Positions 101 to 16,994 of a stretch of DNA of 32,120 nucleotides are shown one piece after another. Made by a program: the position numbers and the translations under genes. Numbering within the stretch: the first letter of the stretch is position 1; each line of letters opens with the position of its first letter. This DNA is from Candidatus Binatia bacterium (GTDB taxonomy: Bacteria > Desulfobacterota > Binatia > UBA12015), in assembly GCA_019749875.1 (NCBI GenBank), contig JAIEPK010000274.1:1-32120 (forward strand). The letters run 5' to 3'. Below the pieces are notes generated by a model. That model saw only the letters and a list, made by a program, of their open reading frames with translations, did no database searches and was not told the origin of the DNA.

Positions 101-592
101 CTAGAGGTAGCCGAGCGCCTTCAGGCGCTCGACCTGCGCCGGATCGAGGTTGCCCTTCTTCAGGCCGTCGATGTCCTTCGCGAACTGCTCGTGCTCCTGC
201 GGGAACTTCTTGTCGCCCGCGATCAGCACGTCGACGGCGCCGTTCACGTCGCCGGCGGCCTTCAGCTTGTCGGCGAGCGAGCGGTAGAGCGCGGGCGTGA
301 TCTGCGGCGAGTAGGTCGGGTTGGCACCGAGCCGGGCGAGGGTGACGATGACCTCCTGGCCCTGCTTGTCGTTCGCCAGGGCGTCGAGGCGGATCTGCTC
401 GAGACGCCAGGCCATCGCGGCGTCGTCGCCCGACGTCACGCCCACCAGCGCCTGCTCCGAGATGTTGCGCGCCTTCGCCCAGTCGCGCGCGTCGAGTGCC
501 GCGCGGGCGTCCTTCTCGTGGTCGGCGAGCGAGCCCTTGCAGGCGGACAGGACGACCAGGGTCAGGACGACGAGCCAACGCGAACGCGACAT
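101..592 (-). CDS. TPR-like outer-membrane lipoprotein with LGYL C-terminus
   Basis: 163-aa predicted lipoprotein. The start at 592 is fixed by a GGAGG about 8 nt upstream and by a signal peptide beginning MSRSRW; a longer upstream reading has no such features. The lipobox is L15-S16-A17-C18, and Lys at +2 argues for outer-membrane sorting. The mature part is helical and rich in Ala, Asp, Lys and Leu, in a TPR-like pattern (ARAALDARDWAKARNISEQAL), so a protein-protein role is plausible; no enzyme motif is visible. The last residues, VERLKALGYL, match a tail I recall at the C-termini of TPR and sulfatase/phosphatase-superfamily proteins, and resemble the end of the 67-aa protein at 5110-5313. 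It is divergent from the phosphodiesterase operon and shares its upstream region. Lipoprotein assignment is firm; function is unknown. Confidence 0.85.
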   Translation of the reverse strand: MSRSRWLVVLTLVVLSACKGSLADHEKDARAALDARDWAKARNISEQALVGVTSGDDAAMAWRLEQIRLDALANDKQGQEVIVTLARLGANPTYSPQITPALYRSLADKLKAAGDVNGAVDVLIAGDKKFPQEHEQFAKDIDGLKKGNLDPAQVERLKALGYL

Positions 593-816
593 CAAGGGAG
601 CCTCCGAGCGGGTGCCGTTCCGTGGCGGCACCTGGTGGACCACGGACGGGCCAACGCGTACAGTCAGGGTCCCGCCAGTCGGTGTTCCAATTGCGTGCCA
701 CGCCGAACGGAGCTTGCCCGGCGCAGCGCCCGACGCGTACCATGCGGAGTTTCCCGGGAGCAACCGCCGGCGGCACAGCCGATGTCACGACCCCAGGCGA
801 CGACCGCGACCCCACG
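593..816. promoter_or_regulatory. Divergent intergenic region between lipoprotein and phosphodiesterase operon
   Basis: This 224-bp non-coding stretch must hold the promoters for both directions. A possible plus-strand sigma70-type pair is TTGCCC (about 715) followed after 17 nt by GTACCA near 738. A short inverted repeat, TGCCG/CGGCA, occurs near 611-628. Part of it can be read as an N-terminal extension of the downstream gene, but that stretch has no signal sequence or family similarity. The promoter call is weak. Confidence 0.3.
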
Positions 817-3069
817 ATGACGAGCCGAAAATCGAAGCCCGCGACGCGCGGCACTCTGGTCGCGCTCGCGCCCCTGCTCGTTCTCGCGCCCTCGGTCGCG
901 CACGCCTACATCGGACCCGGCGCCGGCTTCGCGTTCGCGGGCTCGCTATTCATGGTCGTCGCCGCCCTCGGACTCGCGCTGCTGACGATCCTGCTGTGGC
1001 CGATCACGACGCTGTGGCGCCTGATCCGCGTCGGCAACCCGTTCAAGAGCGCGAGCGCCAAGCGCGTCATCATCGTCGGCCTCGACGGCATGGACCCGGG
1101 CCTCGCGACCCGCTTCATGCAGGAAGGCCGCCTGCCGAGCTTCCAGCGTCTCGCCGAGCGCGGCGTGTTCCGTCCGCTCGACACGTCGAACCCGTCGATG
1201 TCGCCGGTCGCCTGGTCGACCTTCACCACCGGTACCGACCCGTCGCGGCACGGCATCTACGACTTCATCACCCGCGACCCGTGTACATGTGCGCCGATGC
1301 TGTCCAGCACCGACATCAAGGACGCGTCGCGCGTGCTGAACATCGGGCGCTACATGGTCCCGCTCGGCAAGCCCAAGATCAAGCTGCTGCGCAAGGGCAC
1401 GCCCTTCTGGAAGCTGCTCGGCGACAAGCACATCCACTCGATCATCCAGCGCGTGCCGATCACGTTCCCGCCCGAGCCGTTCCGCGGGCTGCTGCTGTCC
1501 GGCATGTGCGTGCCCGACCTGCGCGGCAGCCAGGGCACGTTCAGCTTCTTCTCGACCGCGAGCGGTGACGCCGGTCAGGCCGCGTTCACCGGCGGCGAGC
1601 AGACGGTGCTGCGGCGCAACAAGCAGGGCGTGATCCGCAGCCGCATCGTCGGCCCGGACAACTCGCTCGAGAAGGGCCATCCGCGCTTGACGCTGCCGTT
1701 CTCGCTCATCGAGTCTGCGGACAAGCGCTCGGCGCGCCTCGAGATCGACGGCTGCGAGCCGATCGAGCTCGAGCTGCAGCGCTACTCCGAGTGGATCACG
1801 CTGACGTTTCCGGCCGGGCTGGGGATCAAGATCACCGGCATCGTGCGCTTCTACCTGATGTCCCTCTCGCCGGACGTCAACCTCTACATGACGCCAATCC
1901 ACATCGATCCGGAAAACCCGGCGATGCCGATCAGCCACCCGAAGATCTACAGCGTGTACCTCGCGAAGAAGCAGGGACCGTTCGCGACGCTGGGTCTCGC
2001 CGAGGACACCTGGGCGCTCAACGAGCGCGTGATCGACGAGAAGGCCTTCTACGACCAGGCGATGCTGATCTGCGACGAGCGCGAGCAGATGTTCTTCGAC
2101 GCGCTCGAGCACCGCAAGCAGGGTCTCGTGACGACCGTCTTCGACACCACCGATCGCGTCCAGCACATGTTCTACCGCTACCTCGACCCGACCCACCCGG
2201 CGAATCGCGACAAGGACGCGACCGGCTACGCCGACGCGATCGCGCGCACCTACGAGCGCATGGACGGCATGCTCGGCAAGCTGCTCGAGCAGGTCGGCGA
2301 CGATCCCGACACCGTGGTGATGGTCATGAGCGACCACGGCTTCACGAACTTTCGCCGCGGCGTCAATCTCAACACCTGGCTGCGCGACGAGGGCTACCTC
2401 GTCCTGAAGGACGATGCGACGACCAGCGGCGACTGGTTCGAGCGCGTCGACTGGTCGCGCACGCGCGCCTTCAGCCTCGGACTCACCGGCATCTTCATCA
2501 ATCGCAAGGGCCGCGAGCGCTCGGGCATCGTCGAGGAGGGCGACGCGTACGTCACGCTGATCGCCGAGATCATGCGCAAGCTCGAGGCTCTCGTCGATCC
2601 CGAGAACGGCCAGCGCTGCATCCGGAAGGTCCGCTCCGCGATCGCGTCCGCCGACGGTCCGTACCGCTACGACGCGCCCGACCTGCTGGTCGGCTACGAG
2701 GGCGGCTACCGCAACTCGTGGGAGTGCGCGACCGGTGCCGTCACGCGAGAGGTCTTCACGGACAACACCAAGAGCTGGTCCGGCGACCACTGCGTCGATC
2801 CGGACATCGTCCCCGGCGTGTTCTTCTGCAATCGCGCGATCACGCTCGAGCGCCCGCACATCGCGGACATCTCCACGTCGGTGATGCGTCTCTTCGGGCA
2901 GCAGCCCGGACGCCACATGCAGGGCCGGATGATCTTCGCCGAAGGCGGTGCCCGCGCGACGGTCGCGGGACCGCTCGACCCGGCGTGCTTGACGCAGTCC
3001 GGCTCGGCACCGGGCGCACTCGTCCATCCGGAGCCCGTCGTCGAGCGGCGCGAGGCAGCGAATGCGTAG
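817..3069 (+). CDS. Membrane-anchored alkaline-phosphatase-superfamily phosphodiesterase (type I NPP-like)
   Basis: 750-aa metal-dependent phosphodiesterase/nucleotide-pyrophosphatase-type protein. Visible catalytic elements are the metal Asp in VGLDGMD (D90), nucleophile Ser in MSPVAW (S129) followed by STFTTG and HGIYDF, the metal pair D506-H507 in MSDHGF, and a metal His in WSGDH (H658). The N-terminus has a hydrophobic segment ending in AHA (about residue 30), the motif AYIGPGAG, then a second transmembrane helix (about 38-65) followed by basic residues (WRLIR, SAKR). By the positive-inside rule the catalytic domain may lie in the cytoplasm if the first segment is not cleaved. The start at 817 was chosen because the signal-like segment begins there; 742 is possible but has no ribosome binding site. 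First gene of the operon; its stop overlaps the next start by 8 bp. Substrate unknown. Confidence 0.88.
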   Translation: MTSRKSKPATRGTLVALAPLLVLAPSVAHAYIGPGAGFAFAGSLFMVVAALGLALLTILLWPITTLWRLIRVGNPFKSASAKRVIIVGLDGMDPGLATRFMQEGRLPSFQRLAERGVFRPLDTSNPSMSPVAWSTFTTGTDPSRHGIYDFITRDPCTCAPMLSSTDIKDASRVLNIGRYMVPLGKPKIKLLRKGTPFWKLLGDKHIHSIIQRVPITFPPEPFRGLLLSGMCVPDLRGSQGTFSFFSTASGDAGQAAFTGGEQTVLRRNKQGVIRSRIVGPDNSLEKGHPRLTLPFSLIESADKRSARLEIDGCEPIELELQRYSEWITLTFPAGLGIKITGIVRFYLMSLSPDVNLYMTPIHIDPENPAMPISHPKIYSVYLAKKQGPFATLGLAEDTWALNERVIDEKAFYDQAMLICDEREQMFFDALEHRKQGLVTTVFDTTDRVQHMFYRYLDPTHPANRDKDATGYADAIARTYERMDGMLGKLLEQVGDDPDTVVMVMSDHGFTNFRRGVNLNTWLRDEGYLVLKDDATTSGDWFERVDWSRTRAFSLGLTGIFINRKGRERSGIVEEGDAYVTLIAEIMRKLEALVDPENGQRCIRKVRSAIASADGPYRYDAPDLLVGYEGGYRNSWECATGAVTREVFTDNTKSWSGDHCVDPDIVPGVFFCNRAITLERPHIADISTSVMRLFGQQPGRHMQGRMIFAEGGARATVAGPLDPACLTQSGSAPGALVHPEPVVERREAANA

Positions 3070-5098
3070 AGCCGCGGGGCTCCTGCTCGCGGTGCTGCTG
3101 CTGGTCGGCCGTCTGGATGCGCTTTCGAGCGCGCACGCGGCGGACGGCAAGGCAGCCGACAAGACGGGCATCTTCGTGCTCGGCGTCGACGGCATGGACC
3201 CCGTCGTGCTGCAGCGCCTCATCGACGAGGGCAAGATGCCGAGCTTCGCGAAGCTCGCCGCGACCGGCAGCTTCCAGAGCCTCGGCACGGCGAACCCGCC
3301 GCAGAGCCCGGTCGCCTGGTCGACCTTCGTGACGGGGCTCAACCCCGGCGGGCACGGCGTGTTCGACTTCGTGCACCGCGATCCGAAGACGTACCTGCCG
3401 ATCAGCTCGGCGACGCTCCCCGAGGATCCCGGCAGCGCGGTATCGCTGTTCGGCTACTACATCCCGATCGGCGGCAAGACGCCGCAGAACACGCGCGGCG
3501 GCGTCCCGTTCTGGGATCCGCTGATGAAGGCGGGGGTCGACGTCGAGGTCTACCGCATGCCGGGCAACTACCCGCCGCCGCCGTCGGACGCGAAGGTCTT
3601 GTCGGGCATGGGCACCGTCGACATGCGCGGCGGCTACGGCACGTACTCGTGGTTCACGACCTATCCCGTGCAGGGTCGCGAGCACATGAAGGGCGACATC
3701 CACCAGGTGTCGCTGTCGGACGACGATCTCGACGGCAAGCCGGACACGGTGCGCGCGACGCTCAAGGGCCCGCCCGACGTCTTTCGCATGCCGCCCGGCC
3801 ACGTGCCGGGCGACGCCGACTACTTGACGGTTCCCGTGACGTTCCGCGTCGACCCGGAGCACGACGCGGTGCTGGTCGAGGCCGGTGACAGCCGCGCGCT
3901 GCTGCGCGTCGGCGAATGGTCGGACTGGCTGCCCGTCAAGTTCCACCCGCTGCCGGCGAGCCTGCTGCCGCTCGAAGGGATCGTCCGCTTCTACGTGCGC
4001 CAGGTGCGTCCGGGACTCGAGATCTACGCGAGCCCGGTGAACATCTCGCCGGCGAATCCGGCGCAGGACATCTCGACGCCGTCGTCGTTCGCGAACGAGC
4101 TCTACGCGCTGCTCGGCTACTACTACACGCAGGGCATGCCCGAGGACACGAACGCGCTGAAGGACCGCATCTTCGACGACGACGACTACAAGCGTCAGGT
4201 GGCACTCGTGCAGCAGGACACGACCGCCATGCTCGACCTGGCCTTGACGCGCTTCGAGCCCGGCGACACGACGTTCATGTACCTCTCGGACATCGACCTG
4301 CAGTGCCACATGCTGTGGCGGCTCGGCGATCCGAAGAACCTGGACGCGCCGCCGCATCCCGCACGCGCGGCCGACGAGCACGCGGTCGCGGCGCACGGCG
4401 AGGACATCGAGGGCTACTACCGGCACGTCGACCAGCTGCTCGGCGGCGTCCTCGAGCGCGTCCCCGAGGGCACGCTGGTGATCGTGATGAGCGATCACGG
4501 CTTCCAGCCGTATACGCGCAAGGTCAACCTGAACGCGTGGCTGCGCGACAACGGCTACCTCGTGCTGAAGGACGGCAAGCACACCGGCAAGATCACCACC
4601 GGCGACGTCGACTGGACGAAGACGCGTGCCTACGGCCTCGGCTTCAACGCGCTCTACGTGAACCAGCGCGGCCGCGAGGCCGAGGGCATCGTCGAGCGCA
4701 CGGCGGCGCCGGCGCTGCTCGCCGAGATCGGCGCCAAGCTCGAGGCCTGGCGCGACGGCGACGCGAAGGTCGTCCGCCGGGCCTTTCTCGGCGACAAGAT
4801 CTACTCGGGGCCGCGCACGGCCGAGGCGCCCGACATGGTGGTCGGCTACGACAAGGGCTACGGCTGCTCCGACGAGAGCACCCTCGGCGAGATCTCCGAG
4901 ACCGTCATCGAGGACAATCTGTCCCGCTGGTCGGGCAACCACCTGATGGATCCCGAGGTGGTGCCGGGCGTGATCCTGACCAACCGCAAGCTGCCGCGGA
5001 CGGGCTATGCACTCCCCGACGTGACGGCGACCCTGCTCGCACACTATGGTGTCCCCCTGCCCCAGGGCATGGAGGGGAAAGACGTCTTCGCCCCGTGA
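3062..5098 (+). CDS. Secreted alkaline-phosphatase-superfamily phosphodiesterase, paralogue of the upstream gene
   Basis: 678-aa protein with a cleavable signal peptide (MRRAAGLLLAVLLLVG, cleavage near AHA, residue 26) and no second membrane helix, so it should act in the periplasm. It aligns along its length with the upstream protein: GVDGMDP (metal D43), QSPVAWSTFVTG (nucleophile S82), HGVFDF, MSDHGF (D478-H479), and WSGNH (metal His, H627), where the paralogue has GDH. The insert SGMGTVDMRGGYGTYSWF corresponds to SGMCVPDLRGSQGTFSFF in the paralogue. It ends GMEGKDVFAP, a typical ending of secreted phosphodiesterases of this superfamily. The ATG overlaps the preceding stop codon (ATGCGTAG), indicating translational coupling. 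The tandem duplication with different topology suggests sequential steps on the two sides of the membrane; this is inference. Confidence 0.88.
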   Translation: MRRAAGLLLAVLLLVGRLDALSSAHAADGKAADKTGIFVLGVDGMDPVVLQRLIDEGKMPSFAKLAATGSFQSLGTANPPQSPVAWSTFVTGLNPGGHGVFDFVHRDPKTYLPISSATLPEDPGSAVSLFGYYIPIGGKTPQNTRGGVPFWDPLMKAGVDVEVYRMPGNYPPPPSDAKVLSGMGTVDMRGGYGTYSWFTTYPVQGREHMKGDIHQVSLSDDDLDGKPDTVRATLKGPPDVFRMPPGHVPGDADYLTVPVTFRVDPEHDAVLVEAGDSRALLRVGEWSDWLPVKFHPLPASLLPLEGIVRFYVRQVRPGLEIYASPVNISPANPAQDISTPSSFANELYALLGYYYTQGMPEDTNALKDRIFDDDDYKRQVALVQQDTTAMLDLALTRFEPGDTTFMYLSDIDLQCHMLWRLGDPKNLDAPPHPARAADEHAVAAHGEDIEGYYRHVDQLLGGVLERVPEGTLVIVMSDHGFQPYTRKVNLNAWLRDNGYLVLKDGKHTGKITTGDVDWTKTRAYGLGFNALYVNQRGREAEGIVERTAAPALLAEIGAKLEAWRDGDAKVVRRAFLGDKIYSGPRTAEAPDMVVGYDKGYGCSDESTLGEISETVIEDNLSRWSGNHLMDPEVVPGVILTNRKLPRTGYALPDVTATLLAHYGVPLPQGMEGKDVFAP

Positions 5099-5109
5099 GG
5101 AGATGACCG

Positions 5110-5313
5110 ATGTTCGGACTCGGCAAGACCCAGTCGATCAAGCTCGAGCGTGACCTGTACGACCGCGTGAAGAAGATCGCGGACGTGGCCGGCTACGCGA
5201 CCGCGGAAGAGTTCGTCGCGCACGTCCTCGAAAAGGAGCTGATCCACTTCGAGGACGCGAAGAACGACGACGACATCCGCAACAAGCTGCGCGGCCTCGG
5301 CTACATTTCCTGA
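5110..5313 (+). CDS. Small ribbon-helix-helix-like protein with LGYI C-terminus
   Basis: 67-aa protein preceded by GAGGAG 7 nt before the ATG and 11 bp after the second phosphodiesterase gene. Residues about 8-45 (QSIKLERDLYDRVKKIADVA, then GYATAEEFVAHVLEKEL) fit the beta strand-helix-helix pattern of MetJ/Arc or CopG-type ribbon-helix-helix proteins, which bind DNA as dimers. The acidic linker (EDAKNDDDD) leads to the tail NKLRGLGYIS, resembling the tail of the lipoprotein at 101-592. If it binds DNA it could regulate this operon, but the shared tail with an exported protein makes another role, such as a scaffold or partner subunit, equally possible. The gene is clearly real by ribosome binding site, spacing and fold pattern. 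Confidence 0.75.
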   Translation: MFGLGKTQSIKLERDLYDRVKKIADVAGYATAEEFVAHVLEKELIHFEDAKNDDDIRNKLRGLGYIS

Positions 5314-5343
5314 TCGGCCCCGCACCGCGCGCTTCGTTCCCCC

Positions 5344-6162
5344 GTGCAGACCTTCAACGCGATCACGAGCCGCGTCTTCGACGTGCTGCTCGCGCCCTTC
5401 GGACACCGCTGGGCCTGGTTCGACCTGCTCCTGTGGCCGGTCCTCGCCGGCGTCGCGGCGCTGCTGATCTACAAGCTGGTCAGCAACCAGAAGGGCATCG
5501 CGGACGCGAAGCGGCGCATGATGGTGAGCCTGCTCGAGGTGGTGCTGTATCGCGAGAACGTCCTCGGCGTGCTGGTGTCGACGGTGAAGGGCCTCGCGCA
5601 GAACCTGCGCTACCTCGGCTACAACATCCTGCCGATGCTGGTGATGATCGTGCCGATGACGGTCATCATGGTGCAGCTGGTCGCGAACTACGCGTATGCA
5701 CCACTGAAGCAGGGCGACGTGCAGCTGCTCGAGGTCACGCTCGCACCGGGAGCCGGGTCGTCGGCACGAAGCGTGACCGCCGACTTCCCGGCCGGAGTTG
5801 CCGTGGAGGCTGGTCCCGTCCGCACGGCGGACGGCCGCGTGTTCTGGCGGCTGCGCATGCTCGAGGACGGCGATCAGGTCGTGACTCTGCGCGCCGGCGA
5901 CGAGACCGAGCCGAAGATCATCCCGGTCGGCAACGGCCCGCGGAAGGTTCCCGTGCTGCGCACGCGCACCTGGGAGGCGCTGCTCTATCCGGGCGAAGCC
6001 GCGCTGCCCGCGGGCTCGGCCTTCGAGACCATCAAGCTCGCGCCCCCCGACCGCAACCTGAAGCCGTTTCCGAGCGGCGAGGGCGGCATCCTGCTGTGGT
6101 TCTTCGCGGCGTCGCTGGTGGCGGGATTTCTCCTGCGCAAGCGGCTCGGCGTGACGCTCTGA
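5344..6162 (+). CDS. Three-helix membrane protein resembling the Oxa1/YidC/EMC3 fold, with periplasmic insert
   Basis: 272-aa protein starting at a GTG; no good ribosome binding site is seen, and no better in-frame start precedes the first helix. Helices lie at about 25-45, 94-114 and 248-264. Between helix 1 and 2 is a basic amphipathic stretch beginning YKLVSNQKGIADAKRRMM, the arrangement seen in DUF106/EMC3/TMCO1 and YidC proteins. A roughly 130-residue, probably beta-rich periplasmic domain (about 118-246) is inserted between helices 2 and 3, and the C-terminus (RKRLG) should be cytoplasmic. It lies between the ribbon-helix-helix gene and the sulfotransferase gene. The fold proposal comes from topology and the SNQK-type motif only. 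The alternative is an unrelated membrane protein of unknown function. Confidence 0.75.
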   Translation: MQTFNAITSRVFDVLLAPFGHRWAWFDLLLWPVLAGVAALLIYKLVSNQKGIADAKRRMMVSLLEVVLYRENVLGVLVSTVKGLAQNLRYLGYNILPMLVMIVPMTVIMVQLVANYAYAPLKQGDVQLLEVTLAPGAGSSARSVTADFPAGVAVEAGPVRTADGRVFWRLRMLEDGDQVVTLRAGDETEPKIIPVGNGPRKVPVLRTRTWEALLYPGEAALPAGSAFETIKLAPPDRNLKPFPSGEGGILLWFFAASLVAGFLLRKRLGVTL

Positions 6163-6175
6163 CGCGAGGTTCCCG

Positions 6176-6805
6176 ATGTCTCTCCTCGACTCGATCCGCG
6201 GCCTGCTCGGCGGCGGCGCCGCGAAGTACGGCGAGCCCATCGTCATCGTGTCCGGCCTGCCGCGCAGCGGCACGTCGATGATGATGAAGATGCTCGACGC
6301 GGCCGGCATCCCGATCATGACCGACGCCGTCCGCACCGCCGACGTCGACAACCCGAAGGGCTACTTCGAGTTCGAGCGCGTCAAGGACCTGGAGAAGGAT
6401 CCCGACCGCAGCTGGGTGCGCGAGGCGCGCGGCAAGGCGCTCAAGGTCATCTCCTGGCTGCTGAAGGACCTGCCCGACGACAACGCCTACCGGATCGTCT
6501 TCATGCGCCGCGACATCGACGAGGTGCTCGCGAGCCAGAACAAGATGCTCGAGCACCGCGGCGAGGACGACACGACCGACGACGCGATCATGGCCGAGGC
6601 GTACCGCAACCACCTCGCCTCGGTGCGCATCATGGCGCGCAAGAAGCCGAACTGGTCGATCGTCGAGATCCGCTATGACGAGGCCATCCGCGATCCCGCC
6701 GCCGTCGCGCGGCGCGTGAACGAGTTCCTCGGCGGACGCTACGACGTGCAGCGCATGGTCGAGGCGGTGGACGAGAAGCTCTACCGCAACCGCAAGACCG
6801 CGTGA
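6176..6805 (+). CDS. Small sulfotransferase family protein
   Basis: 209-aa protein that probably moves a sulfuryl group from PAPS to an acceptor. The 5'-phosphosulfate-binding loop is [11 protein letters not shown] (residues 26-36). A 3'-phosphate-binding segment is seen in [17 protein letters not shown] (about 105-121), equivalent to the family RDP..v..S motif. There is no signal peptide, so it is cytoplasmic. The length is short for the family (usually 250-300 aa), but both cofactor motifs are present and the C-terminus (LYRNRKTA) looks natural. It is the last gene of the operon, 13 bp after the membrane protein gene, with GAGG before the ATG. A link to sulfated lipids or glycans handled by the neighbouring phosphodiesterases is inference. 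Confidence 0.85.
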
Positions 6806-6995
6806 CGCGCACACTCGGCGGCAGCCGCGCTTCCCGCCTCTTCGCGATGGTACCAGCGGAGTGGGCGATTTCCTCGGCCAAGAATCGGGGCTTGCGCGCG
6901 ATGAAGCATCGTCAGAAACTCGCCAGTCACCCGACTACGGGGGAGGCGTAGGTGCCGTCCCCGCCCGTACCCTCACGCCGATGGGAGCGAAGCCC

Positions 6996-8801
6996 GTGAA
7001 CCTCTCGACGACTCCCCCACCGCCGCGCCTCGGTCGTCGGCATCGCGCGCTGGGCGCGGTCTTCGCCGGACTGATCGTCGCCGCCATGGCGGCGGTCGTG
7101 GGCACCCCACGATCAGCGGCTGCCCTCGATTGTACTGCTCTGGCGCCACTCAACGAGTGCATCCCCGGCGGTGCGAACTCGCGTCTCGACTGCATGGCGG
7201 AGTGGCTCACGCTCCCCGAGACCGCGCGCAACTACAAGCGCGTCCCGAAGCCGGTCATCAAGTGCTACGAGGGCGACCCGAACTGCGACGAGGATCCCGA
7301 CCCCGACAACGGGCTCTGCACGTTCTCGACGAGGATCTGCATCAACAACAAGGATCCGCGCCTCCCGAGCTGCGTCCCGTCGGACGTGTCGACCTTCGAG
7401 TTCAACCTGGGGGGCCTGAACATCGACGACCCGGTCGATCAGGTGAACAAGGGCAACCTCGAGTGGGAGGTTCGCTACGGCGGCCTCGGCTCGTACGTCG
7501 TGCAGGACCAGCAACTGGTGTTCGCCGACGGGGTCAATGCCACGCCCAACCTCTGCAGCGGCACGATCCAGCTGTTCGTGCTGATGACGTTGGGGCCCGA
7601 CGGCACCTACCAAAAGGCGCGGCGCCGCTTCCGCGTGCGCGCCGCTGCCGCCGACGGCCGCGTCGACGTCGACACCTTCACCTACGATTGTCTGCCCAGC
7701 CGTTGCGGTGACGATCGCCTCCAGAACAACGAGCAGTGCGACGACGGCAACCGGATCAACGGCGACGGCTGCGATCAGGGCTGCTACAACGAGCCCTCGC
7801 CAACCCCGAGCCCGGTTCCAACCCCGACCCCGACCCCGACCGCGACCCCGGTCCCGACCGAGACCCCAATCCCGACCGAGACCCCAATCCCGACCGAGAC
7901 CCCAATCCCGACCGAGACCCCAATCCCGACCGAGACCCCAATCCCGACCGAGACGCCGGAGCCGACGGCTTCGCCCACGCCTGGCCCCTCGCCTGGACCG
8001 ACCCTCGGTGTGTGGTCGTTCGGCGTCTCGACCGGCAACAGCGGCCCCTGCTCGAGCAGCACCCTGTCCGACAGCTCGCAGATCCACGCGTCCGGCGTGC
8101 CGGGCAGCAACACGACGGGTGGCGGCTCGGTCTGCAGCCTGACCCGCGGCAACTTCTCCGCCAGCGCGAACTTCCAGCTGCAGGGCGGCTCGATCAACCC
8201 GGCCGACGGCAAGGCACCGATCCAGTTCCTCGGCGCCCGCGTCGTCCGCGTCCAGCAGCCGACCGCGTCCGGCAACGACTGGCTCTGCCTGCGCATCGAG
8301 TCGAACGGCCCGGGCTTCGTCGACTGCGATGGCGGCACGAACACCAGGCTGTCCGCGCAGGTGAACAGCAACCTGGCGGCGGCGCCCTCGCCCCCGCAGT
8401 GGGATCCGTTGTGGCTCTCGACCGTGGCTGGTGACACCACGGCCGGCCAGGCGCAGATCCCGGTCAGCGTCAAGCTGCAGCAGCTCACGACGGCCTGCCC
8501 TGATCCGGCGGACGCGAGCTGGACGTCGATCGATCCGATCAACACCATCTTCACCACGGGTCAGGCGCAGGCGCAGATCACCAATCCGCTGCGTTGCCCG
8601 AACGCCGTGGGCTTCTTCAGCTGCCCGGAAGGCAGCAGCTACACGAAGACCGTGGCGAACACGGCCAGCCTGAACTGCGCGACCTGGACGACGCAGACCA
8701 GCAAGACCTTCCAGGCGCCGCTGTTCTTCCTGGACAACGACTTCGGAGGTCCCAACGTCGGCGACATGGCGCTCGTAGCCCGGCTACGAACGCTGCCCTG
8801 A
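6996..8801 (+). CDS. Secreted Cys-rich protein with Myxococcus-type repeat and Pro-Thr linker
   Basis: 601-aa exported protein of unknown function. The GTG at 6996 is preferred because GGGAG lies 8 nt upstream; an in-frame ATG at 6981 has no ribosome binding site and would add five residues. The signal peptide ([18 protein letters not shown]) ends near SAAA. The N-terminal domain contains many Cys. Around residues 237-266 is one Cys-rich repeat with the signature CGDDR...EQCDDGN...GDGCDQGC, matching the Myxococcus cysteine-rich repeat (DUF4215-type). A Pro-Thr-Glu linker (about 268-330) built of PTETPI hexapeptides follows, then a roughly 270-residue C-terminal domain without recognised motifs. 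It is probably a surface or extracellular protein. It stands alone, with a 190-bp upstream region after the sulfotransferase gene. Confidence 0.8.
7861..7950 (+). repeat. Five perfect 18-bp tandem repeats encoding the PTETPI linker
   Basis: The unit agaccccaatcccgaccg occurs five times without a mismatch, flanked by diverged copies at 7843-7860 and 7951-7968. It stays in frame, so copy-number change would lengthen or shorten the protein linker by six residues without breaking the gene. Confidence 0.95.
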
Positions 8802-9100: not shown

Positions 9101-12100
9101 TCAGCGCACGCGCGCGGTAGCGCCGGCGATGCGCAGCTTCCAGCCCTCGAGCACCGGGTTGCCGCGGTCGTCGGTCGCGGCATCGACGTCGAGCCGGCTC
9201 GCGACGTAGTGCAGCCGCTCGATGTCGTCGCGTCGCGCCGGGCCGTACGCCGCATCGGCGAAGCGGTCCTGCAGGAAGAACGGCGGGATCGACTGCGACT
9301 GCAGCGTGACCCGCACGTGATCGGCGCGCGCCAGCGTGTCGGGATCGAGCGCGATGCGATAGGCGATCCGGTCGGCGCCGGTACGGCGCGGATCGGTGTA
9401 GTCGGGATCGTCCGCCTCGGCGCCGTGCAGCTCGGCGAGCTCGCGCACGTACGGCGAGTCGGAGCGCGCGAAGAAGCCGGGATCGTAGCCTTTCGGCCGG
9501 ATGCGGTTGTCCTTGACGGTGTCGACGCGGCGCAGGAAGCTCGTCGTCAAGCGACCGTCGGAGTCGCGGATCAGCTCCTGGTAGATCTGCACCTGATCGC
9601 TCGCCGTGATCGTCTGGTAGTGCGGCTGGATGGCTGCGTCGGGGAAGCGCTGCGGCTGCTCGCTCGGCAGCACCGTGTCGCCGGTGCCATCGACGAGGAA
9701 TCCGAGCGCGTTGGTACGACCGGATGCCCACAGCACGTTCTCCTCCGCGTCGAGCACCAGCAGCTCGAGGAACATGCGCCGGAAGCCGACGCCGGTCGGC
9801 AGATCGTGCCCGGTCAGGTTCTCGACGGTGACGTCGGCCTCGAGCAGGCCGCCGCTGCGACGCACGCGCGCGAGCTCGACGGTCGCGGTCTCGTTCGCCG
9901 CCATGTCGAGCATCGAATCGAGCCCGGTCAACAGCGGCAGCTCCATCGGATAGCTCGCCCGGAACGGCGGCGCCGGCGGATCGATCGACGACGCCTGCTC
10001 GGACATGAAGTCGATCTGCTGGATGCCGAGCAGCAGCGGGAACTGCTGCGCCATCTGGTTCAGGAAGACGTTGAGCCCGTGCAGCGCGTGGCGCGAGTAG
10101 CGATCGCGCAGCGCCGGCTGGATGTCGTCGTCGGGCAGGCGGTTGGTCGTCGGCGGAAACGCCTCGGCGGACTCGCTGCTCGCGATCTCGAACGCCAGCT
10201 TCGTGCCGCGGAACGTCTTCGGCATGTGGCAGTCCTGGCACGAGCGGAACGCCTTGCCGGGCCGGCCACTGTCGCTGTTGGTCCACTCGAGGTGCGTCGC
10301 CTGCTCGTAGCTCGCACCGAGGCGGCGGCCGTCGTTCGCGTAGATCGGCAGCAGCACGTTGTGGCAGCTGCCGCACAGCTCCGAGGACGCGACCTGCGCG
10401 CCGTGCATCGGCGTAAGCCCGAGCGCGTGCTGCATCGGCTTCTGCTTGACGGTATCGGTGGCGTACGGGCCGTAGAGCTCGTCGGCGGGACCGGTGACGA
10501 AGTTGCCGGTGAACGATCGCTCCTCGCCCAGGTCCGTGTCGGCGACGTGGTGGCAGACGGTACACGACACGCCGTCGCGGGCGAGCGCCGCATAGCGCTG
10601 CTCGCCGGACGGCTCCTCGCCCGGCCACTGCGCCAGCACCGCGCGCCGGAAGGGCGAGCCGAATGGAACGTCGGGCGGCGGCGGGATCGCGAACAGCTGC
10701 TCGCACGCCGGATCGCTCGCGGTGTCGGCCGCCCACTGCCGCGCGCCCATGACGCCGTGACAGTGCAGACAGGTGGTCTCGATGCACGCGTCGAGGTCGG
10801 GCAGGCGATTGGTCTCGGACTGGAGCTGCGCGAAGAACATCGGATCGCGCCCGGCGAGACCCATCGGCGACACGCGCCACTCGCCGTACGGCGACAGGTT
10901 GCGCAGCCGGCTGGTGCGGCCCGGCTCGGCGGTGACGAGCACCATCTGCGGCAGCAGCGGGCTCTGCGCGGTCGCGTTGTGACAGGCGTCGCACTGCGCC
11001 GACGTCAAGAACTGCCCGGGCCCCTCGTGCGCCGACAGCACCAGCTGATCCCAGGTCTCGGCCGGCATGCGCGTCGCCCACACGTCGGCGAACGCGACCG
11101 GCGGCAGCTGGTCGAAGAACGTCAAGAATAGCTCCGACGGTGCCGGCAGCGGCGCCGGGAACGGCCGCAGCGAGCCGATCGGCGACGGCGCCGGCTCGGG
11201 GTCCGGCCCCGGATCGAAGGCCTTGTAGCGCAGCTCGCTGCCGAGCACGTTGTCGAGCGACGAGAACGTGCTTTCGGCCGCGGCGGTCGCGTGGCAGCTG
11301 AGACAGTACGGGTGGCCGGCGAGCGGAATCAGCGGCACCACGTTCGGCACCTTGAGCGGCAGCTGCAGGATGCCGCCGGTCGGGTACCACGCCGGGTCGT
11401 CGATGATCGGGTCGGGGAACTTGCCGCCGGTGAACCCGGAGCGGTTCAGCAGCGGCGGACCGAACTGCGGCGGGATGCCGAGGTCCGGCTGCTGCAGCGT
11501 CCAGTACCAGCCGTCGTACGACGAGCGGCTGGTCTTGATCATCGGCGCCCACAGCTGCGGCTGGATCGGCTGCTGCGGATCCTCGACGATGTCCATGCAG
11601 CCGTCGGCCGCGGTGCGGATGTCGAGCTGATCGAAGGTGATGTTCATCGCCTTGACGATCATCGCGCCGTCGGGGATGTCGCCCTCGCGACCGTTGCACA
11701 GCCACTCGACGATCTCCGGCGAGTACGAGACGCGCAGCGGAAAGTGCGGGCCGTAGTTCCGCGCGTACGAGCCGTTCTCGACGATCGACGGACCGCTGAA
11801 GCGCCAGCGCGCGTCGCTCACCCAGCCCAGGCGCACGTACTGCTGCGTCGTGAGGAAGGTCTCGAGGCGGAGGTTGTACGCCTGCCAGACCGCGAAGTCC
11901 TCGGGTGACGGCGGATCGCGCAGATCGTCGGGCAGCGGCCGGCCGCGGTCGGGGTGCGCCCGGCACCAGGCCTGAACGTCGGCCTCGCTCGGCGCGGGCG
12001 CGCCGCGGGCGCAGATCCACTGCTGCGGATCGGCTGGCAGCGGCCCCGGCGGCTCGGGGCCGTCGCTCGCGCGGTCGCCGCACGCGGCGAGCAGCAGGAG

Positions 12101-12193
12101 GGCTCCGCACAGCACGAAGCCGCGCGCCGATCGTGCCAGCTGACGAGCGCAGCCGCGCACGGCGGGCCGCAGTGCATGGCGCGAATCCGGCAC
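9101..12193 (-). CDS. Hexaheme c-type cytochrome lipoprotein
   Basis: About 1030 aa. It has six CxxCH heme sites, with first Cys at about residues 297 (CLSCH), 401 (CDACH), 475 (CLHCH), 544 (CTVCH), 607 (CGSCH) and 652 (CQDCH). The N-terminus has a hydrophobic segment and lipobox LAAC (GALLLLAACGD), so it is a periplasmic or outer-membrane lipoprotein. The C-terminal third has no heme and contains the segment NLTGHDLPTGVGFRR, which I recall from large multiheme cytochromes. No in-frame ATG precedes the lipobox; GTG at 12193 is used, and GTG at 12160 is an equally good alternative with a shorter n-region. It probably carries electrons outside the inner membrane; donor and acceptor are unknown. 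No other electron-transfer gene is adjacent except the diheme protein further right. Confidence 0.85.
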   Translation of the reverse strand: MPDSRHALRPAVRGCARQLARSARGFVLCGALLLLAACGDRASDGPEPPGPLPADPQQWICARGAPAPSEADVQAWCRAHPDRGRPLPDDLRDPPSPEDFAVWQAYNLRLETFLTTQQYVRLGWVSDARWRFSGPSIVENGSYARNYGPHFPLRVSYSPEIVEWLCNGREGDIPDGAMIVKAMNITFDQLDIRTAADGCMDIVEDPQQPIQPQLWAPMIKTSRSSYDGWYWTLQQPDLGIPPQFGPPLLNRSGFTGGKFPDPIIDDPAWYPTGGILQLPLKVPNVVPLIPLAGHPYCLSCHATAAAESTFSSLDNVLGSELRYKAFDPGPDPEPAPSPIGSLRPFPAPLPAPSELFLTFFDQLPPVAFADVWATRMPAETWDQLVLSAHEGPGQFLTSAQCDACHNATAQSPLLPQMVLVTAEPGRTSRLRNLSPYGEWRVSPMGLAGRDPMFFAQLQSETNRLPDLDACIETTCLHCHGVMGARQWAADTASDPACEQLFAIPPPPDVPFGSPFRRAVLAQWPGEEPSGEQRYAALARDGVSCTVCHHVADTDLGEERSFTGNFVTGPADELYGPYATDTVKQKPMQHALGLTPMHGAQVASSELCGSCHNVLLPIYANDGRRLGASYEQATHLEWTNSDSGRPGKAFRSCQDCHMPKTFRGTKLAFEIASSESAEAFPPTTNRLPDDDIQPALRDRYSRHALHGLNVFLNQMAQQFPLLLGIQQIDFMSEQASSIDPPAPPFRASYPMELPLLTGLDSMLDMAANETATVELARVRRSGGLLEADVTVENLTGHDLPTGVGFRRMFLELLVLDAEENVLWASGRTNALGFLVDGTGDTVLPSEQPQRFPDAAIQPHYQTITASDQVQIYQELIRDSDGRLTTSFLRRVDTVKDNRIRPKGYDPGFFARSDSPYVRELAELHGAEADDPDYTDPRRTGADRIAYRIALDPDTLARADHVRVTLQSQSIPPFFLQDRFADAAYGPARRDDIERLHYVASRLDVDAATDDRGNPVLEGWKLRIAGATARVR

Positions 12194-13817: not shown

Positions 13818-16800
13818 TCAGAGAGCAGGACAGATCGCCGGCGCCGCGGCATTACCGTTGGCGATGAACCGGTCGATCTCGTCGATTCGGCCCGACACCT
13901 CGGTGCACCACTGGACACCCGTCCCGAGGGTCAACCGGAGCGCGAGCCGGCCCTGCTCCGCCTCGTCGAGCGAGTAGGCGAAGAATTCGTGCCCGCCCTT
14001 GACCACGATCTTGTCGTCGCGAACGGTCACCTGCTGGATCGGGTCGGTCTTGTGCGGCGCCTTGAACACGTAGGTTGCGGGCTTGGACGGGCTCCCCTTC
14101 GCGGCCCACCCCGAGGACGGCAGCGGCACGCGGATCGATTCTCCGGAGCCGCTCGCGTTGTAGAGGATCAGGGTCGCGCCGCCGGTGCGCGGATCACCCG
14201 AGGTGCCCCGTGCGGGCGCGACGATCCGATGCGGCGCGGGGACATCCTTGCTGGTCGCCGCGAACGCGAGCAGACGCTTCTTGGCGAGTCCCTTCTCGCT
14301 CCCATCCTTGAGCACGAGGCTCTTCGTGCCGATCGTGGTGAGCGCGAAGCCCGGCGGTAGGCTCGACGGATTCTCCGGATCCGATCCGGCCGCGACCTCG
14401 TCCTGGTCGGACACGGTATCGCCATCGCGGTCGAGGACGTAGGGCGCTGCCATCTGCGGCAGCATGCACGTCCCCGTGCGCTCCTCGCCCGGAACGGACA
14501 CGATCGCTCGTACGGCGGCGGCATCGAGCAGCTCGTCCGCCTGACGGCCGGTCGTGAACGTCGTGCCGAAGGCGAGATGCCATGCCTCGTCTCCGGTGCC
14601 ACCGCGCACGACGAAGCTGCAGTGGCCCTCACGATCGGCGCGGCCGAGCGCCGTCAAGTACATCGCCAGCGCGGGGTCATCGATGGTCTCGCGGGTGAGC
14701 GTCACCTGCTGTCCGACGGCCGGCTTCAGTCCGGGATCGATCGCAAGGATGAAGTTGCTTAGATCGATCCGCTCGTCGAGCGGGATCACCGTGAACGCGT
14801 TGTGGAAGTCGACCAGCGACCCCAGGCTGCCATCGAACTCGAGGCCGAAGCCGCGCACGACGTCACCGCCAAAGTACGCCGGGATCTGGTGGTCGTTCGC
14901 GCCGTTCGCACCGAACAGCCCGACCTTCTCGTAGGCGTTGCGCAGGTGCGGAACCTTCATCGGCTGACCGAAGGCGAAGCCGAGGACGACGCGCCCGTCG
15001 GTCGTGAGCGGCAGCCGATGGCACGCGTTGCACGTGCCGACGCGGTCCGCGAAGCCCGTTCGAAAGAGCCGCTCGCCCCGTGCCATGGAGGCGGTCGGCA
15101 GGTCGTCGAGCGGCCTGTACGGGTTCGGCGGGTACACGAGCGTCAAGACGTAGTCCGTGAACGCCTGCAGGTCCGCGGCGGGCAGCGGCGCCGCGCGCCC
15201 GAGCAGGGCCGGAAACGCCGCGTTGAAGGTCTTCAGGCTCTCGGCCGCGTCGTAGGCGCTTCCTCCCGAAGACGCTCCACTCCGGTCGCCGCGCCAGTGC
15301 AGCGGACCGGTCCCCGCGAGCCCGCGCAGGCTCTGCGTCAAGAACGGACCCTTCGCCGGGTGGTAGGTCGCGCCGACGCCCGCTTGTGCGGACAGCAGAT
15401 CGACCGTCGGATTGGCGACCGTGAGCAGCGCACCGAGCGGATCGCCCAGGTCCCAGGCGAGGCCGTCGGTATCGCCGAAGACGTGGCAGCTCGCGCAGGC
15501 GGCATCACCATGTGCCGAGGTCGCGCGGGCGTCGAACAGCAGCCGCTGCCCGAGCCGTACCACCGCGGGCCGCGGATCGGTGCCGAGAGGGGTGACGGTG
15601 CCGAGCGCTCGCGAGGCCTGCGAGGCGTTCTCGACCGTCGCGATCGCATGATCGAACGCCAGCATGACGTAGAGCCGGTCGCGCGCCGCATCCAGCACGA
15701 TGCCGCTCGGGCCACCACCGACGGCAACCTGCGGGCGCGGCGACACCACGCCGGCCTCGAGGCTGTCGCTGTCGAGAACGGCGACCGATCCCGACCCGAA
15801 CGCCGTCAAGTATAGCGTCGTGCCGCCGGGCGAGAACGCGAGGCCCATGGGGAAAGCCAGGCTCTCGGCGATCTCGGCCGGCGGTCCCGGGATCGTGTCG
15901 TAGTCGATGTGGGGATTGAGATGGACCGGCGTGACCGACGTTCCCCGGAGGACGGTGATGCGGCTCTCGCTGACGTGCCCGCGAATGCTCGGTTCGAAGC
16001 GGACGTGGTTCCTCGCGTCGGTATTGCTCACGTACACGGCGCCGGTGTCGGGGCGGACGGCGAGGTTGAACAGCGTCGTGCCGACGCCCGAGAACGATGC
16101 CGTCTGCGCCGGCATGGGTGCCGCGGCGTCGATCGCGAACACGTCGAGGTCCGGCACGTCGAACGGGATGCGCTGCCTCCAGTTGCGGCCGATCTCGTCG
16201 TCCCAGCGATCGGTCGTCGGATCGTACTTGACGATGAGCCCGGTCTTGGGCGCGCCCGCGGTCGCGCCCGGAGGGAACGGCGGCAGCCCGGGACCGCCCG
16301 CGACGACGGAGTTGTTCACCGCGGCAGTCCGGCTCCCCGAGTGAAACACGGCCGCGTACACCGTCGCCCCATCCGGGCTCACCGCAAGCGCACGCGGAGT
16401 GTCGCCGAACAACGTCAGGATCGTCAGCGGATCGCCGCGAAAGCTGCTGCCGAGCGCGTCGGCGTCGAACACCCAGACGTCCGCACGGCCCACCTCCTGG
16501 GTCAGAGGCTGCGCGTCGCCGGGTCGGTTCTGCCCGCGGTGCGCGGCGGTGATGAACGCGCGCGTGCCGCCTGGGCCTGCGAAGACGACGTCGCGCGGCG
16601 CATCGCCCACCAGCAGGGTCCGCATCACGTGTGCGGCCGCCGGATTCCCCGGATCGACGTCGACGACGCTCACGCTGTCCGAGACGTGGTTCACCACCCA
16701 GGCCTCGACATGGCCATCACCGCGTACGCGTGCCGCGACCGCGACCGGCTCGAATCCCACCGCGACGTCGGCAACCGGGTGCAGATCCCCGGTCGACACG

Positions 16801-16994
16801 TCGAACACAAGCAGCCGGTCGCGCGGCGTGCTGACCGCGAACAGGAGATCGAGCGAGGCGACCAGCGCCAGCGGCCGCACGTGCCCGCTCTCGAAGTTCA
16901 GCTCCGCGGTGGCGCCCGCGTCGCGTGGCATGCCAGCACTCATCGAGGCCAGGAAAAATGCGGTCACGGCTCGGCCAACGGCTGACAGTCTCAT
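13818..16994 (-). CDS. Secreted YVTN beta-propeller/diheme cytochrome c protein
   Basis: 1058 aa. The start at 16994 has AGGAG 7 nt upstream and a signal peptide ending near GATA (about residue 30). Residues about 30-480 contain propeller repeats with phrases such as VSPDGATVYAAVF, FSPGGTTLYLTAFGSGSVAV and LDAARDRLYVM, typical of YVTN/6-bladed propellers. Two heme sites follow: CASCH (C500) and CNACH (C655), in a cytochrome-c-peroxidase/MauG-like region with phrases LRGLAGTGPLHWRGDR and VPHLRNAYEKVGLFG. A calcium-type DRDGDTVSDQDE loop comes next, then a roughly 140-residue C-terminal domain (LVLKDGSEKGLAKKRLL to SGRIDEIDRF) that I cannot assign. It is probably a periplasmic or extracellular oxidoreductase or peroxidase-like enzyme; the substrate is unknown. 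Confidence 0.88.
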   Translation of the reverse strand: MRLSAVGRAVTAFFLASMSAGMPRDAGATAELNFESGHVRPLALVASLDLLFAVSTPRDRLLVFDVSTGDLHPVADVAVGFEPVAVAARVRGDGHVEAWVVNHVSDSVSVVDVDPGNPAAAHVMRTLLVGDAPRDVVFAGPGGTRAFITAAHRGQNRPGDAQPLTQEVGRADVWVFDADALGSSFRGDPLTILTLFGDTPRALAVSPDGATVYAAVFHSGSRTAAVNNSVVAGGPGLPPFPPGATAGAPKTGLIVKYDPTTDRWDDEIGRNWRQRIPFDVPDLDVFAIDAAAPMPAQTASFSGVGTTLFNLAVRPDTGAVYVSNTDARNHVRFEPSIRGHVSESRITVLRGTSVTPVHLNPHIDYDTIPGPPAEIAESLAFPMGLAFSPGGTTLYLTAFGSGSVAVLDSDSLEAGVVSPRPQVAVGGGPSGIVLDAARDRLYVMLAFDHAIATVENASQASRALGTVTPLGTDPRPAVVRLGQRLLFDARATSAHGDAACASCHVFGDTDGLAWDLGDPLGALLTVANPTVDLLSAQAGVGATYHPAKGPFLTQSLRGLAGTGPLHWRGDRSGASSGGSAYDAAESLKTFNAAFPALLGRAAPLPAADLQAFTDYVLTLVYPPNPYRPLDDLPTASMARGERLFRTGFADRVGTCNACHRLPLTTDGRVVLGFAFGQPMKVPHLRNAYEKVGLFGANGANDHQIPAYFGGDVVRGFGLEFDGSLGSLVDFHNAFTVIPLDERIDLSNFILAIDPGLKPAVGQQVTLTRETIDDPALAMYLTALGRADREGHCSFVVRGGTGDEAWHLAFGTTFTTGRQADELLDAAAVRAIVSVPGEERTGTCMLPQMAAPYVLDRDGDTVSDQDEVAAGSDPENPSSLPPGFALTTIGTKSLVLKDGSEKGLAKKRLLAFAATSKDVPAPHRIVAPARGTSGDPRTGGATLILYNASGSGESIRVPLPSSGWAAKGSPSKPATYVFKAPHKTDPIQQVTVRDDKIVVKGGHEFFAYSLDEAEQGRLALRLTLGTGVQWCTEVSGRIDEIDRFIANGNAAAPAICPAL

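Follow-up and report, generated by a model that had tools for sequence, protein, structure and literature searches.

What system is encoded by the six genes at positions 101-6805 of the window, the 32,120-nucleotide stretch of DNA analysed here (contig JAIEPK010000274.1 of a Candidatus Binatia bacterium, positions 1-32,120)? The contig starts beside a lipoprotein gene, which diverges from five closely spaced genes for two phosphodiesterase-like enzymes (PDE1 and PDE2), a 67-amino acid (aa) ribbon-helix-helix protein (RHH), a transmembrane protein (TMP) and a sulfotransferase (STF). We found that this locus is a real, widely conserved, unnamed bacterial operon, and that a short C-terminal tail (consensus LxxLGY[I/V/L], hereafter LGY tail) ends both RHH and the lipoprotein. 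In these genomes the tail is a hallmark of the alkaline phosphatase superfamily, to which the two enzymes belong, and at this locus it lies on separate small proteins beside tailless enzymes. Our literature search found no paper describing the tail or the gene set.

Recurrence was assessed by a TMP-seeded scan of 84,980 species genomes and by searching 395 genomes from the window's phylum with a TMP profile; these genomes are mostly assemblies, and genes in distant loci were called with a simple codon-usage caller and hidden Markov models (HMMs). The scan returned ten loci in which the order lipoprotein (divergent)-PDE1-PDE2-RHH-TMP-STF was identical wherever the contig reached, at protein identities of 39-96%. 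TMP was detected by the profile search in 15 of the 395 phylum genomes, the window's own included, the 14 others representing many families; these neighbourhoods, mostly at 42-61% GC and with TMP identity of ~25-30%, kept PDE1-PDE2-RHH-TMP and usually STF. The PDE1-PDE2-RHH-TMP-STF order was seen in loci spanning 42-72% GC with TMP identity of only ~25%. Six HMMs run over all loci placed RHH on the same strand in 31/31 TMP loci (window and near-duplicates counted), the PDEs wherever the contig reached and STF in most. Since the order recurs in distant genomes, the gene set is not a chance assembly. In the family and class of the window, genomes had either both TMP and a PDE2 orthologue or neither; the seeming absence of TMP from G001, a genome of the same genus with lipoprotein, PDE1 and PDE2, reflects a contig end inside PDE2. 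One locus (L118) had PDE1-RHH-STF without TMP. The lipoprotein was confined to the window's class, where its orthologues diverge from PDE1 in all loci with enough flank, and none was found near distant operons. TMP was not found on plasmids, and PDE2 gave only remote plasmid matches, which among the matches listed were all haloarchaeal "alkaline phosphatase family" proteins. A preceding sequence-only reading had listed the six genes and their spacing, with the lipoprotein divergent, and had proposed that the five plus-strand genes form a functional unit. Both claims held: every gene was recovered at its position, PDE1 and PDE2 overlapping by 8 bp and gaps of 11, 30 and 13 bp separating PDE2/RHH, RHH/TMP and TMP/STF, and the long frames were backed by a bias in GC content at third codon positions. 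The gene order is kept in relatives and in distant genomes, which was the check that this reading had set itself; the outcome that would have spoken against it, genes that are not neighbours in relatives or adjoin only in this strain, was not seen. The module tends to be present or absent as a block.

PF01663 matched PDE1 and PDE2 at 1e-34 each and Sulfotransfer_3 matched STF at 3e-14; RHH, TMP and the lipoprotein had no Pfam family above the cut-off. The two PDEs are paralogues with 38% identity over their aligned region, and PDE1 residues D90, S129, D446, H450, D506, H507 and H658, comprising the nucleophile Ser and the metal ligands, are conserved across 38 PDE1/PDE2 sequences; therefore, both are predicted to be active enzymes. 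They share the profile, the Asp/Asp-His/His metal ligands and the Ser at the nucleophile position with PF01663 type I phosphodiesterases/nucleotide pyrophosphatases, but differ in a large insert, predicted anchoring on two sides of the membrane, constant neighbours and the lack of an LGY tail in cis. A classical formylglycine sulfatase was rejected, given that all 38 sequences carry S-P-V-A-W and none the C/S-x-P/A-x-R motif. Searches of solved structures gave no sequence match for PDE2. PDE1 has an AYIGPGAG motif between a segment resembling a signal peptide and a transmembrane segment (TM); the net charge after the TM is +4 to +8, which by the positive-inside rule would place the catalytic domain of this membrane-anchored enzyme on the cytosolic face. 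PDE2 is probably exported: members from the window's class carry Sec or lipoprotein signals, and those from distant families carry twin-arginine (Tat) signals (TIGR01409 TAT match in L042). In the window's class, PDE1 also has a conserved C-terminal extension after the catalytic domain (LDP..LPQSG.APGA), absent in distant families.

The small protein had been described from the sequence as DNA-binding-like, and its predicted ribbon-helix-helix fold is backed by a relative that matches RHH_1 at 3.9e-4 and by a structural model (predicted local distance difference test, pLDDT, 90). Residues 4-49 of the model superpose on NikR, PutA-RHH and Arc (root-mean-square deviation 1.3-1.6 A, Z 5.3-6.0), RHH proteins made up almost all of the best matches in the fold search, and a third helix after the fold corresponds to the tail. 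In an alignment of 27 RHH sequences, G28, F35, L60, L63, G64 and Y65 were invariant and the linker ahead of the tail varied in length; the tail was the most conserved part, more so than the strand, in which a near-invariant Lys occupies a position that faces DNA in RHH proteins. Many antitoxins join an RHH fold to a C-terminal segment that binds the enzyme, and autoregulation of the operon by RHH is therefore plausible by analogy. Like RHH antitoxins of the ParD, FitA, AtaR and VapB types, RHH combines an N-terminal dimerisation/DNA-binding fold with a helical C-terminal segment and has enzyme partners in its operon; unlike them, it is encoded beside no toxin fold, and its tail is an 8-residue motif common to the enzymes' own superfamily. 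A toxin-antitoxin system was rejected, as there is no recognisable toxin, the partners being PF01663 enzymes, TMP and STF, and no PADLOC match; an anti-phage defence system was likewise discarded, none of the six proteins fitting a PADLOC model.

For the tail census, DNA was searched with a pattern encoding LxxLGY[IVLM], at most two further residues and then a stop codon. The window's genome has 22 true C-terminal tails, 20 of them on or beside genes for PF00884 sulfatase-like proteins; the other two are the RHH and lipoprotein of this locus. The result for G003 was nearly the same, with 19 of 21 tails beside PF00884 genes and RHH and the lipoprotein again making up the rest. Across G016, G020, G076 and part of G005, 48 of 49 tail-bearing open reading frames (ORFs) around pattern matches were superfamily enzymes, and the remaining one looks spurious. 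The tail was present in 0/38 PDE1/PDE2 sequences versus 12/23 PF01663 enzymes elsewhere in the searched genomes (Fisher p = 8e-7, relatedness uncorrected). Non-enzyme carriers in G039 were RHH, an adenosine 5'-phosphosulfate (APS)-kinase-like protein and an ORF of 43 aa that comprises hardly more than the tail (TEEEEAEVQKRLEDLGYVE). This ORF ends a tight operon (L116:3122-5585) in which a CobW-type GTPase gene, which it overlaps, separates it from a tailless PF01663 gene, an independent case of a tail in trans; the operon sits inside a polysaccharide cluster. Such a distribution suggests a tail common to enzyme and partner. The 20 PF00884 proteins of the window's genome share tail (LxxLGY[VIL]) and superfamily with this locus, but carry the tail in cis. 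Most tailed sulfatase-like proteins that we read carry export signals, and matches of tailed sulfatases to solved structures do not cover the tail. Those read from the window's own genome (L069-L082) apparently have Thr at the formylglycine Cys/Ser position, so that their sulfatase annotation is doubtful and they are probably not classical sulfatases.

Two other accounts of the tail have to be weighed against this distribution. RHH could be a mere DNA-binding autoregulator of an envelope-modification operon, its tail a degradation or stability signal that resembles enzyme C-termini by chance. The clean fold, like that of NikR, Arc and PutA, and the DNA-facing Lys are what such a regulator would have, and the divergent region at 593-816, which has no consensus sigma-70 promoter, contains elements conserved among close loci, between the window and L033 and separately among L004/L005/L007-L009. 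However, comparison of divergent intergenic regions between loci revealed no palindrome or operator common to all. The greater conservation of tail than of strand, the restriction of tails to superfamily enzymes and this locus's two proteins in two genomes, and the identical tail on a lipoprotein that is not expected to meet DNA also speak against this account, which we consider a serious candidate but an unlikely one. Alternatively, the operon could use conventional enzyme reactions to make or remodel a sulfated polysaccharide or lipid of the surface, with the tail a structural leftover without a shared partner, as the sulfotransferase and the occurrence of other PF01663 relatives in polysaccharide clusters would allow. 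A leftover would not explain why the tail is invariant on a non-homologous 67-aa RHH and also ends a lipoprotein with tetratricopeptide repeats (TPR) and the 43-aa ORF, and we give this account only a small share of our belief.

The explanation that we favour, as possible rather than probable, is a membrane module of two PDEs on opposite faces of the inner membrane, with the tail supplied in trans, in a sulfation-linked envelope pathway. Supply in trans is the simplest reading because the tail is typical of the superfamily and is found here on small proteins beside tailless enzymes. PDE1 would be held in the membrane with its catalytic domain facing the cytosol, PDE2 would be exported, and TMP would span the membrane between them; a dimeric RHH would carry the tail to PDE1 and, in the window's class, the TPR lipoprotein would carry it to periplasmic PDE2. 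The occurrence of the tail on cytosolic and exported proteins alike would follow from the enzymes themselves lying on both membrane sides. The tail probably docks on the PDEs, or on a shared maturation or recruitment partner, and thereby controls or places them, much as RHH antitoxins bind their enzymes through a C-terminal segment, and RHH may additionally bind the operon's own DNA. With an STF of the type that uses 3'-phosphoadenosine 5'-phosphosulfate (PAPS), the module would most likely modify a phospho-linked envelope lipid or glycan through sulfation and phosphodiester cleavage or transfer. The conserved unit with its gene order, the intact active sites, the RHH fold and the tail with its distribution are established by the comparisons above, whereas the membrane sides, the docking, the substrate and the part played by sulfation are inferred.

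Several observations weigh against this explanation. Deep variants of the operon (L037-L039, L041, L043, L051) have no STF, which in L037 is replaced by a further PDE. For several tailless PF01663 enzymes, no tail in trans was found, and distant operons had neither a nearby lipoprotein nor an identified periplasmic tail carrier for PDE2. The tail could also serve another partner, and one common cytosolic receptor is hard to accommodate given that most tailed sulfatase-like proteins appear exported whereas RHH is cytosolic.

Another possible partner is a metallochaperone. In seven related loci, a CobW/COG0523-type GTPase gene lies directly downstream of the lipoprotein gene (L003:3242-4240, L004:4055-4999, L005:4015-4965, L006:3952-4911 and L007-L009 at ~4050-4970, all on the minus strand); the window's contig starts too close to the lipoprotein gene to show it. 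These genes, like the one in L116, are related to those of COG0523/CobW metallochaperone GTPases such as ZNG1 and ZigA. COG0523 proteins supply a client enzyme with zinc (PMC10642216). The tail might accordingly be a client signal for loading zinc into these two-metal enzymes, with RHH and the 43-aa peptide as adaptors, and the position of the GTPase genes and the Tat signals of distant PDE2 proteins, which indicate export in the folded state, agree with such a role. Yet no CobW gene was found near the operon in the other loci searched, and any tailed sulfatase-like enzyme that carries a Sec or lipoprotein signal would gain its metal outside the cytosol; we regard metal loading as distinctly improbable.

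Returning to the favoured membrane module, its link to sulfate begins with STF, in which the 5'-phosphosulfate P-loop PRSGTS is invariant in 14/14 sequences and which, by family match and P-loop, is a predicted PAPS-dependent sulfotransferase. Remote proteins with an RHH fold and tail in G353, G116 and G283 have in their gene neighbourhoods both tailless PF01663 enzymes and CysC, CysD or CysN; the LGY tail is also present on some of these Cys proteins. Because these remote relatives adjoin such genes, the sulfate link gains independent support, and together STF and the CysC/CysD/CysN neighbours point to sulfation. Proteins of the CysD and APS kinase (CysC) families ending in the tail were observed at L119:309-1112, L120:8354-8962, L122:3-803 and L117:2924-3427; those of L119, L120 and L122 are near PF01663 genes, and the CysC-like protein of L117 keeps the tail and has no recognisable Walker A motif. 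The sequence-only reading had envisaged a membrane-associated pathway that adds or removes sulfate or phosphate groups. A pathway at the membrane is plausible in view of the predicted locations of PDE1, PDE2 and TMP, and its sulfate side is backed by the CysC/CysD/CysN link. That reading did not include the shared tail, the opposite membrane sides predicted for the PDEs or the CobW-type GTPase that related loci have next to the lipoprotein.

TMP had been called Oxa1-like, a description that survives as a resemblance of layout and not as homology. The model (pLDDT 89) has TM1, a helical hairpin, TM2, an immunoglobulin (Ig)-like domain (~120-199) and a last TM, and this helix layout is compatible with the three-TM core and cytosolic hairpin of the Oxa1/YidC/EMC3 superfamily. 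In contrast to that superfamily, TMP has an Ig-like domain inserted ahead of the last TM and no similarity to a YidC profile built from relatives (hhalign probability ~0.1%, with the alignment outside the membrane core). It had no 60KD_IMP or EMC3 match in Pfam, and a separate YidC is encoded in the window's genome. The Ig-like domain dominated the fold search, in which Foldseek/VIA gave only Ig-like (filamin/bacterial-Ig) matches, all to residues 118-199 and the best at Z 6.7 to unrelated Ig-like folds.

The locus clearly sets out the components of a conserved envelope operon that has no name yet. More broadly, and as a doubtful proposal that we advance tentatively, LxxLGY[IVL] may be a previously undescribed, general docking accessory of bacterial alkaline-phosphatase-superfamily enzymes, moved here to dedicated carriers on each side of the membrane (RHH dimer and TPR lipoprotein) as a new form of regulation or assembly of two-sided phosphodiesterases. 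If so, one short sequence would tie superfamily enzymes that are poorly understood, dozens of them in each genome, to few partner proteins, and would offer a way into a large set of sulfatase-like proteins without assigned function, the testable question being what binds the LGY tail.

Table. Coordinates of the operon, its tails and its divergent region in the window.
Feature	Positions	Strand	Basis
Lipoprotein (TPR-like, 163 aa, LSAC lipobox, ends ...ERLKALGYL)	101..592	-	Orthologues, weak TPR_14 match
Lipoprotein C-terminal LKALGYL tail and stop codon	101..124	-	Pattern match
Divergent intergenic/promoter region common to lipoprotein and PDE1	593..816	.	Comparison between loci
PDE1: signal peptide, AYIGPGAG, TM and PF01663 domain (predicted cytosolic face), tailless	817..3069	+	Pfam, 38-sequence alignment
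PDE2: PF01663 paralogue (~37% identical to PDE1), predicted exported, tailless	3062..5098	+	Pfam, signal sequences
RHH: 67-aa ribbon-helix-helix protein, C-terminal tail helix ...KLRGLGYIS	5110..5313	+	Relatives' profile, model
RHH C-terminal LRGLGYIS tail and stop codon	5287..5313	+	Pattern; L60, L63, G64, Y65 invariant in 27 sequences
TMP: GTG start; TM1 ~24-46, cytosolic helical hairpin, TM2 ~92-116, periplasmic Ig-like domain ~120-199, TM3 245-264	5344..6162	+	Model; membrane sides predicted
STF: predicted cytosolic Sulfotransfer_3-type sulfotransferase, invariant P-loop	6176..6805	+	Pfam, alignment

Directly downstream of STF, the window encodes a protein that looks secreted and has DUF4215 and a stretch of PTETPI repeats (6981-8801), a homologue of which follows STF in L001 and was not found in the other loci. 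Further along, two ~1,000-aa proteins with weak cytochrome c7 or CCP_MauG-like haem matches (9101-12115 and 13818-16931, minus strand) flank a GGDEF gene.

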